Below are positions 28,499 through 31,973 of a stretch of 64,000 nucleotides of DNA, piece by piece. Position 1 is the stretch's first letter. Each line of letters begins with the position of its first letter. The notes under the pieces are model-generated. The model searched no databases, was not told the DNA's origin, and worked only from the letters and a program-made list of their open reading frames with translations. Source of the DNA: Lachnospiraceae bacterium. GTDB taxonomy: Bacteria; Bacillota; Clostridia; Lachnospirales; Lachnospiraceae. The stretch covers positions 1 to 64,000 of the forward strand of contig JAFUQM010000026.1 in the NCBI GenBank assembly GCA_017472325.1. Direction: 5' to 3'. A program made the translations under genes and the position numbers.

Positions 28499-30175
28499 CT
28501 ATTCGCCAAGTCCTAATCTGTTTACTGCAGAGAAAATAGCACGTACAGAAGCTCTTGTAATGTTGGAGCTTACACCAACACCGTATGTAACTCTTCCGTC
28601 ATCAGCATCTAACATATGGATATATGCTGCTGCCTGTGAATTAGCACCACTCTGCAAAGCATGCTCTTCATAGTCAAGAACTTTGATACGTACACCAAGA
28701 CATTCTTGCAATCCTCTCTGCACCGCATCAATTGGTCCATTTCCGACTGCTTCAAAGCTCTTTTCTACTCCATGATCTGTATAAAGGACAGTAACTTTTG
28801 TATCAAATACTGAATTTACTTCATCACTCATATCATCCACACGGATTTTTCTAAAGTGAATTGGTTCTTTCTGCTCCAGATATTCTTCACGGAACTGTTC
28901 CATAATCTGTTCTGGCGCCACCTCACCCTGTTTCTCTGAAATCTTCTGGATAACATTGGCAAATTCCTTGTGCATACCTTTTGGAAGTTTAAATCCAAAG
29001 TAGGTATCCATAACAAAGGCTACACCACCTTTTCCAGACTGTGAGTTAATACGAACAATTGGTTCGTACTCTCTTCCGATGTCTGCTGGATCGATTGGCA
29101 AATATGGTACCTGCCATATTTCACTCTGTCGTTCCTTCATCGCATGAACACCTTTATTGATAGCATCCTGATGAGAACCAGAAAATGCAGTAAATACTAA
29201 TTTACCCGCATATGGGTGTCTTGGATGAATTGGAATCTTACAGCATCTTTCATAAATCTCAATAATATCATTCACACGTTCAATGTTCAGTTCAGGATTA
29301 ATTCCCTGTGAGAACATATTATATGCAATATTGAGTACGTCCACGTTACCAGTTCTCTCACCATTACCAAACAACGTACCTTCCACTCTGTCTGCTCCCG
29401 CAAGCATTGCTAACTCTGCTGAAGCAACACCAGTACCTCTGTCATTATGAGGATGTACACTCAAAATAATACTTTCTCTATCTTCAAAATGATTATTCAT
29501 CCATTCAATCTGGTCTGCATATACGTTTGGTGTTGTCATCTCTACTGTAGATGGCAAATTGATTATAATTGGGTTTTCTTTTGTTGCTCCCCAAGTTTTC
29601 TGTACTGCTGTACAAATATCTAGTGCAAAATCCAGTTCTGTTCCTGTAAAGCTTTCTGGTGAATATTCCAGAATGATTTCCCCTGGAAATTTCTCTGCAC
29701 GCTCTTTTACCATCTTGGTACCTGCAATAGCGATTTCTTTAATCTGCTCTCTATCCATTCCAAATACAACATCTCTTTGTAATGTAGATGTCGAATTGTA
29801 GATATGTACAATTGCCTGTTTACAACCCGCAATAGATTCAAATGTTCTGTCAATCAGTTCTTCTCTACACTGTGTCAGTACCTGCACTCTTACATCATCA
29901 GGAATCATCTTACGTTCAATTAACTGGCGTAAGAAATCAAATTCAATCTGACTTGCTGCTGGAAAACCAATCTCAATTTCTTTGAAACCAAGCTTGATTA
30001 AAAATTCAAACATTTCAATCTTTTCCTGCACAACCATAGGATCGATTAATGCCTGATTACCATCACGCAAATCTACACTACACCATATTGGTGCTTTTTC
30101 AATCTCCTTATTTGGCCATTCTCTTTCCGGATAATCCACTACTGGATTTCTCCGGTATCTTTTATAATTCAACAT
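28499..30175 (-). CDS. leuA: 2-isopropylmalate synthase
   Basis: About 558 residues from ATG 30175 (GGAGG 8 nt upstream; the upstream in-frame ATG overlaps that site). The catalytic barrel has CSVDLRDGNQALIDP (metal-binding Asp), LSVHPHNDRGTGVASAELA and GTLFGNGERTGNVD. The C-terminal leucine-sensing domain ends with YAAYIH-like segments and ITRASVRAIFSAVNRLG. It is the long LeuA class. It condenses acetyl-CoA with 2-oxoisovalerate to start leucine synthesis. No other leu gene is adjacent. It lies behind an HPr gene with a terminator between and no room for a T-box leader. Confidence 0.94.
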   Translation of the reverse strand: MLNYKRYRRNPVVDYPEREWPNKEIEKAPIWCSVDLRDGNQALIDPMVVQEKIEMFEFLIKLGFKEIEIGFPAASQIEFDFLRQLIERKMIPDDVRVQVLTQCREELIDRTFESIAGCKQAIVHIYNSTSTLQRDVVFGMDREQIKEIAIAGTKMVKERAEKFPGEIILEYSPESFTGTELDFALDICTAVQKTWGATKENPIIINLPSTVEMTTPNVYADQIEWMNNHFEDRESIILSVHPHNDRGTGVASAELAMLAGADRVEGTLFGNGERTGNVDVLNIAYNMFSQGINPELNIERVNDIIEIYERCCKIPIHPRHPYAGKLVFTAFSGSHQDAINKGVHAMKERQSEIWQVPYLPIDPADIGREYEPIVRINSQSGKGGVAFVMDTYFGFKLPKGMHKEFANVIQKISEKQGEVAPEQIMEQFREEYLEQKEPIHFRKIRVDDMSDEVNSVFDTKVTVLYTDHGVEKSFEAVGNGPIDAVQRGLQECLGVRIKVLDYEEHALQSGANSQAAAYIHMLDADDGRVTYGVGVSSNITRASVRAIFSAVNRLGLGE

Positions 30176-30223
30176 GTTATCTGCCTCCATTTTCTATAAC
30201 ATATTAATAATATCTACAACATA

Positions 30224-30265: not shown

Positions 30266-30532
30266 TTAGTATTCACCAAGACCATTCTCAATCGCTCTGA
30301 CTAAGGATTCCAGTGCTTCCTGCTCATCTTCGCCTTCGCACACGAATTCTACTTCGTCACCACATTTTACACATGCTCCCAGTACGCTTAATACGATCTT
30401 CGCATTTGCTGTATTTTCTCTAAATTTAAATGTAATTAACGATTTGAACTGCATTGCCTCTTTACATAGGATGCCTGCTGGTCGTAGATGTAACCCTGTT
30501 GGATTTTTGATAGTAACCTTCTGGCTTACCAT
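30266..30532 (-). CDS. ptsH: HPr-family phosphocarrier lacking Ser46
   Basis: An 88-residue HPr from ATG 30532 (GGAGG 8 nt upstream; the reading frame opens earlier at a TTG that overlaps this site). The PTS site is intact: H15 in GLHLRPAG. The usual regulatory serine at position 46 is isoleucine (NAKIVLSVLG, I46). HPr kinase/phosphorylase therefore should not modify it at that site. Family knowledge: His15 relays phosphate from enzyme I to sugar permeases, and Ser46-P drives CcpA repression. No ptsI is adjacent. A second, canonical HPr may exist elsewhere. Confidence 0.85.
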   Translation of the reverse strand: MVSQKVTIKNPTGLHLRPAGILCKEAMQFKSLITFKFRENTANAKIVLSVLGACVKCGDEVEFVCEGEDEQEALESLVRAIENGLGEY

Positions 30533-30623
30533 ATAATGTCCCTCCAATTTCTATACGTCTTATCCCCTAGTAAATTCTACCTTCTTTAACTATATCATTT
30601 TTTATGTTTCATCACAAGTGCTT

Positions 30624-31973
30624 TTATAGCATAATGTTCTGGATGAGGTTTGCCAGTTTCTTCGCTTCCTGTTCAATTAAAGTCTGGTCTTTTCCTTCAA
30701 TCATGACACGCACTAACGGCTCTGTACCAGACGGTCTAATCAGCACTCTGCCTTCCCCTGCAAACATTTTCTCCAGCTCTGCAATCGCATTTGCAATCTC
30801 AGGATATTCCATATATTTCTCTTTTTTATGATTTGGTACTTTCGCATTTACAAGCGCCTGTGGAAGCACTTCCATAATAGACGCTAATTCAGAAAGTGGT
30901 TTTCCTGTTTCTACTAAAACTTCTAACAGATGTAAGGCACTTAACAAACCATCACCTGTTGTATTCTCATCAAGGAAAATAATATGTCCTGACTGCTCAC
31001 CACCGAGATTTGCCCCAATTGCTTTCATTTCTTCCAAAACATATCTATCCCCAACTTTTGTCTGTTTTATTTCAATGTCATGCTCACGTGCCATTAGCAT
31101 AAAGCCAAGATTGCTCATAACTGTTGCCACAATGGTATCTTGTTTCAGACAACCTTTTTTCTTCATATGATTGCCGACAATTGCCATAATCTGGTCACCA
31201 TCAACGATTTCTCCCTTTTCGTCCACCGCAAGAAATCTATCCGCATCACCATCAAACGCAAGTCCCATATCCGCTTTCTCATACACTACTCGTGCTTTCA
31301 ATTCCCCCATATGAGTAGAGCCACAGTTCGCATTAATATTCGTTCCATCTGGATTATTATGAATAGCAATTACTTCTGCCCCAAGTTCCTTCAACGCTTC
31401 AATGGAAGTATAAAAAGATGCACCTTCTGCACAATCAACAACAAGTTTTTTACCTGTCAAATCCAGATTTACAGACTGGATTGCATGATTGATGTATTCC
31501 TCTCTGGCATCTGTACGGTATTTGATTTTACCTACACCAGAACCTGTTGGGAATTTAATCCCTTCCATATTGCTCTTAATCAATGCTTCAATTTCATCTT
31601 CAAGCTCATCTGGTAATTTATAACCATTGCCATCAAAAAACTTAATACCATTAAATTCTACAGGATTATGTGAAGCAGAAATAACAACACCTGCATCTAC
31701 TTTATATTTTCTTGTTAGATAAGCAACTGCTGGTGTAGGCACAACTCCTACAAAGACCGCATTTGCACCTACCGAACAAGCTCCTGCCATCAACGCATTC
31801 GCAAGCATATCACCAGAAATTCTTGTATCACATCCTACCATAATCGTTGGTCTGTGCTGATTTTCCTTTGTCAACACATAAGCGCCTGCCTGCCCTAACT
31901 GCATCGCTAAAAACGGAGTTAATTCTTCATTTGCTACGCCTCGCACACCATCTGTTCCAAATAATCTAGCCAT
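30624..31973 (-). CDS. glmM: Phosphoglucosamine mutase
   Basis: A 449-residue alpha-D-phosphohexomutase: the phosphoserine loop ISASHNP with S101, metal-binding DGDADR, sugar-binding GGEQSGH and phosphate-binding [11 protein letters not shown]. It interconverts glucosamine-6-P and glucosamine-1-P for UDP-GlcNAc and peptidoglycan synthesis. It is third in cdaA-cdaR-glmM, a conserved Firmicutes order in which GlmM can bind and inhibit CdaA. The start at 31973 follows AAGGAAGAAAAG. Confidence 0.96.

Follow-up and report, generated by a model that had tools for sequence, protein, structure and literature searches.

The question raised by this locus is whether an HPr protein that has His15 but Ile in place of Ser46 is a phosphate carrier exempt from carbon catabolite control, as was proposed in a preliminary description of the sequence, or a single departure from an ordinary HPr. 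The gene lies on the minus strand of the window, by which we mean the whole 64,000-nucleotide stretch of Lachnospiraceae DNA analysed here. It encodes 88 amino acids plus a stop codon, starts with ATG and has GGAGG 8 bases 5′ of the start. A strand or frame artefact was ruled out: the plus strand contains stops and the minus-strand frame is open. The product scored 77.7 bits against NCBIfam TIGR01003 (cut-off 47.9) and 97.8 bits against PF00381 (cut-off 23), which places it in both families. It also carries the active-site His15 of HPr phosphocarriers together with Arg17. Of the two features of HprK-regulated HPr in Bacillota, Ser46 is absent (Ile, ATC) and an HprK in the same genome is present. 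Translation of the minus strand (codons CAT and ATC) bore out the residues first reported, with no strand given, at positions 15 and 46.

We use H15/S46, which we take to be the standard HPr numbering. In phmmer comparisons, residues 1-82 of the window HPr matched 1-82 of chain 1mo1 (Crh, presumably from B. subtilis), and residues 5-87 matched 5-87 of the HPr chain 3le1. Both matches were gap-free, and both chains have Ser at the column of Ile46. The alignment had been called ungapped; this was right for these two chains but not for B. subtilis HPr entries such as 1sph (HPr of that species by origin, we assume), where residues 8-87 matched 8-88 with one gap whose place was not given. Other HPr chains matched at equal length over 3-81 (1txe) or 7-79 (1ka5), which makes it improbable that the gap precedes residue 46.

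On the minus strand of the window the gene order was cdaA, a ybbR-like gene, glmM, the HPr gene and leuA. The gene between cdaA and glmM, to which we assign the name ybbR on assumption, had no NCBIfam match at 1e-20. We compared the locus with those of 109 relatives (29 loci from a search of 397 family genomes and 80 further loci; 82 distinct sequences). Matches to glmM were present in 82 of these loci and matches to leuA in 90, with both in one locus in 65; ybbR and leuA matches without glmM were seen in 23. In a tree of 98 rows and 87 columns, a length at which most forks stayed open, the window HPr fell inside the glmM-linked class (SH-aLRT 97). By locus and clade it thus belongs to this class, and it lacks the Ser46 of the class. 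Promoter-like sites near the HPr gene gave no sign of function, with two in the region against 2.6 expected in shuffles.

Table 1. Features of the HPr locus in the window and of two related genes elsewhere in the same genome.
Feature	Position	Strand	Evidence or residues
HPr, glmM-linked class (His15, Arg17, Ile46, Ser49)	30266..30532	-	Sequence, profiles, chain alignments, orthologues
Codon 15, CAT (His), phosphocarrier residue	30488..30490	-	His in 109/109 relatives
Codon 46, ATC (Ile); AGC/AGT (Ser) in 109/109 relatives	30395..30397	-	
glmM (phosphoglucosamine mutase), upstream neighbour	30624..31973	-	TIGR01455, 581 bits vs 448
leuA (2-isopropylmalate synthase), downstream neighbour	28499..30190	-	TIGR00970, 741 bits vs 697 (28499-30178)
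Terminator-like hairpin past HPr stop codon	30230..30251	-	7 pairs, fold z-score -4.3
Promoter-like site upstream of HPr gene	30589..30617	-	No better than chance
Crh-like protein gene by whiA	L009:7428-7691		Glu15/Ser46, Thr17
PTS-operon HPr of the same genome (C53)	L010:9219-9476		His15/Lys46

Ile46 proved to be a singleton. All 109 relatives, which were 85-93% identical to the window HPr, had Ser46 (codons AGT 59, AGC 50), and each of them also had His15, Arg17 and Ser49. Matches to the window HPr, paralogues included, were found in 389 of the 397 family genomes. When the 397 genomes were searched for an exact DNA pattern that specified Ile46, this genome was the only one to match. A similar pattern that left codon 46 open and ran one codon longer at its end matched 221 of them. 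Among the 150 matches listed for it, which do not include this genome, all had Ser codons (AGT 73, AGC 73, TCN 4); for the 176 genomes without the motif the pattern says nothing of residue 46. Ile46 as a trait of Lachnospiraceae is ruled out by the relatives and the two patterns. The same counts, which show how narrowly Ile46 is conserved, speak against it as the conserved mark of a specialised exempt carrier: its orthologues are dual-site proteins. The genus is represented by this genome alone, and Ile46 rests on one sequence. When 64 loci were ranked by their glmM, leuA and cdaA, the best was 88% identical, so the change falls somewhere on a seemingly long branch.

The same genome encodes a full-length HprK, which scored 369 bits (cut-off 240) and carries GESGIGKS at residue 154. 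A predicted enzyme I gene (598 bits, cut-off 342) makes relay through His15 possible, as had been supposed. Six HPr-domain loci were recovered from the genome, which is 61.9% complete, and none of them has both His15 and Ser46. A Crh-like protein with Glu15 and Ser46 is encoded in the order uvrC-hprK-ROK glucokinase-murB-rapZ-whiA-crh. A second HPr, with His15 and Lys46, shares an operon with the genes for PTS IIA, IIBC and enzyme I, and is called the PTS-operon HPr below. Three short HPr-like proteins (L004, L005 and L006) have no His15 equivalent and keep the motif AKS(I/M)(L/M)G; they are possible extra targets of HprK. Both an hprK and another HPr gene, for which the preliminary description had advised a search, are therefore present, and so are further members of the HPr family in which Ser46 is retained, namely the Crh-like protein and the short HPr-like ones. 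The intact HprK and the six loci rule out that the window HPr is the sole HPr of a genome without hprK. A second copy of the glmM-linked HPr in the unrecovered part of the genome would be unusual, since at most one match per genome was seen, by eye, in the rows of the open pattern.

Is Ile46 a real allele? Codon 46 (ATC) is one G-to-T change from AGC. The genome is a draft and may be a metagenome bin, so Ile46 could reflect an erroneous base or a strain in the minority, with the species at large having an ordinary Ser46 HPr. Of the alternatives this one survives best, and we hold it to be possible though rather unlikely. In its favour, a single base change is involved, seen in one genome by exact pattern and in no relative; the assembly is a draft of 80 contigs with the low completeness given above, and is the sole genome of its genus; and picking findings from many windows favours singletons. 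Residue 46 is the sole HPr column where the window sequence alone breaks invariance. Lone departures are not rare in this protein: among 110 sequences, a single one departs at 8 of the 61 near-invariant columns, so one such departure is not statistically remarkable. Ile46 is interesting through its place, at the best-known regulatory site of the protein, and that the sole break falls there counts against an error. So does the state of other genes. Window-only breaks of invariant columns numbered 0/173 in glmM (81 relatives), 0/211 in leuA (89 relatives), 0/90 in HprK, 0/25 in the Crh-like protein and 0/11 in the PTS-operon HPr (29 relatives each). Together these 0/510 breaks argue against a poor assembly; they rule out one that is generally error-ridden and leave a single base error possible.

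We consider it fairly probable that the window HPr is the glmM-linked general HPr in which the Ser targeted by HprK has become Ile, and that it is a natural S46A-like allele. The replacement would have arisen most simply by one base change, AGC to ATC. Enzyme I would still phosphorylate His15 and HPr would hand the phosphate on, and HprK would be unable to phosphorylate residue 46. At high levels of glycolytic intermediates the protein would then be neither a CcpA-type co-regulator nor a slowed substrate of enzyme I, and its behaviour would resemble that of ptsH1 (S46A), the laboratory allele. Ser46 signalling by the intact HprK would fall to the Crh-like protein and perhaps to the three short HPr-like proteins. 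We infer relay competence, loss of phosphorylation and the regulatory consequences alike from the sequence. Ile at 46 could disturb the relay itself, because residue 46, which we take to be the start of helix B, lies beside His15 in the known structure. Thr17 in place of Arg17 may weaken the Crh-like protein of this genome as a substitute.

Ile46 might also do partial damage that the cell can bear as long as the PTS-operon HPr (Lys46) serves the PTS, which would leave the glmM-linked protein free to drift. The presence of a second His15 HPr next to enzyme I and IIA/IIBC in a PTS operon makes this conceivable, but no other invariant column of the window HPr is broken, and at most loci it is roughly as well conserved in identity as glmM and leuA, or better, a comparison biased by the choice of relatives by HPr similarity. 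We regard such drift as improbable. Phosphorylation by HprK at the nearby Ser49, with control kept, is very improbable: Ser49 is present in the window HPr, but it is found in all 109 dual-site relatives and therefore did not arise as a substitute along with Ile46, and it presumably lies inside helix B, as in known HPr structures.

The reading as a natural S46A-like allele can be set against known systems. In profile, His15, Arg17 and length, the window HPr is like Bacillota HPr (ptsH, with His15 and Ser46), and its orthologues at the same locus are dual-site proteins; it differs in having Ile46 where those proteins have the Ser46 that HprK targets. Like Crh, it is a member of the HPr family with one of two sites lost. 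However, Crh has lost His15 and kept Ser46, and the pattern here is reversed, as in the earlier comparison with a mirror image of Crh; the genome also has its own Crh-like protein. The PTS-operon HPr (His15, Lys/Arg46) shares with the window HPr a relay site without the HprK serine, but it lies outside the glmM-linked clade and is common, whereas the Ile46 HPr is a singleton. A further parallel is the ptsH1 (HPr-S46A) allele of B. subtilis and P. thermoglucosidasius, in which the carrier His is kept, Ser46 is gone and Crh is present (PMC9631020, in excerpt). That allele is laboratory-made and has Ala, whereas the window HPr is natural, has Ile and belongs to a Lachnospiraceae-type genome. No HPr S46I was found in our literature search, and little was found on HPr serine phosphorylation in Lachnospiraceae among titles and abstract openings.

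Excerpts of PMC9631020 report that HPr-S46A is no longer phosphorylatable at residue 46. In B. subtilis, S46A freed several genes from repression in part or in full, and what repression was left at some operons was gone once Crh was altered as well. In P. thermoglucosidasius, repression persisted with S46A by itself, which carried a fitness cost; neither single change (HPr or Crh) abolished it, and the double mutant was not obtained (same excerpts). For Thermoanaerobacterium, parts of PMC3526391 report matches to HPr, HprK, Crh and CcpA, and no growth on arabinose in a strain altered at HPr positions 45 and 46. In view of these P. thermoglucosidasius and Thermoanaerobacterium results, losing Ser46 does not necessarily just lift repression. 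Spontaneous crh suppressors are described in a strain with altered hprK (PMC13130090), and Ser46 does not appear in the excerpted account. PMC12445079 and PMC2405797, also in excerpt, served as background only.

For CcpA itself, no protein of this genome exceeded the TIGR01481 cut-off (best 178 of 442 bits), and the same was true of all 100 family genomes surveyed, this one included. The cut-off may suit Bacilli only. In the control just 2 of 14 genomes had a protein above it, so we do not conclude that CcpA is missing. As no protein reached the cut-off, the part of the standard model that runs through CcpA is unproven in Lachnospiraceae. The partner of Ser46-phosphorylated HPr or Crh may here be a diverged regulator of the LacI type, or a factor of another kind.

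Single-site relatives of HPr were also looked for across the family. Crh-like matches, paralogues included, occurred in 392 of 397 family genomes. In the best 30 loci (own genome included) Glu15 and Ser46 were both present in 30/30, and residue 17 was Arg in 27 and Thr in three, this genome being among the three. A search of 100 family genomes for the PTS-operon type gave some HPr match in 98. Its best 30 loci (L160-L189) had His15 in 30/30 and, at residue 46, Lys in 16, Arg in 11, Gln in two and Ser in one; in 20 of these 30 an enzyme I match stood in the same short locus. Both sets of 30 are the top matches to such queries and therefore lean towards the query type. In the tree, the Crh-like rows were set apart (99), and the PTS-operon rows lay outside the glmM-linked clade without forming one resolved clade. 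The PTS-operon HPr is thus a common relay-only type in bacteria of which 95/100 genomes had an HprK match; we found no description of it in a literature search that covered mostly titles.

Glu15 of the Crh-like proteins (L126-L155) might mimic phosphorylated His15. Crh of P. thermoglucosidasius has Gln at this position (PMC9631020, in excerpt), and phosphate on His15 stops HPr from binding CcpA, as cited in part of PMC3526391. If that block holds here, Glu15 would make Crh-like proteins a poor stand-in for an HPr with free His15.

These results bear on the proposed exempt carrier. Such a carrier does seem to exist, but as the PTS-operon HPr, in which 29 of the 30 best loci lack Ser46 (Lys or Arg in 27), and not as the Ile46 protein; the idea fits the former better. 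We tentatively suggest, as a doubtful but possible reading, that Lachnospiraceae split duties among three proteins, the HPr next to glmM having both sites, that of PTS operons only relaying and the Crh-like protein next to whiA only regulating, and that in this lineage the dual-site HPr has turned relay-only, so that relay and HprK signalling are fully uncoupled. If this were true, no HPr-family protein would join both functions here, and HprK would signal without slowing the PTS.

If real, the Ile46 HPr would show that a mutation well known from the laboratory also occurs in nature, among anaerobes of the gut and rumen. The family pattern, with relay-only and regulator-only proteins beside a dual-site HPr, is of wider use than the Ile46 allele, because comparisons between lineages could then test what is gained when sugar uptake is coupled to catabolite control.
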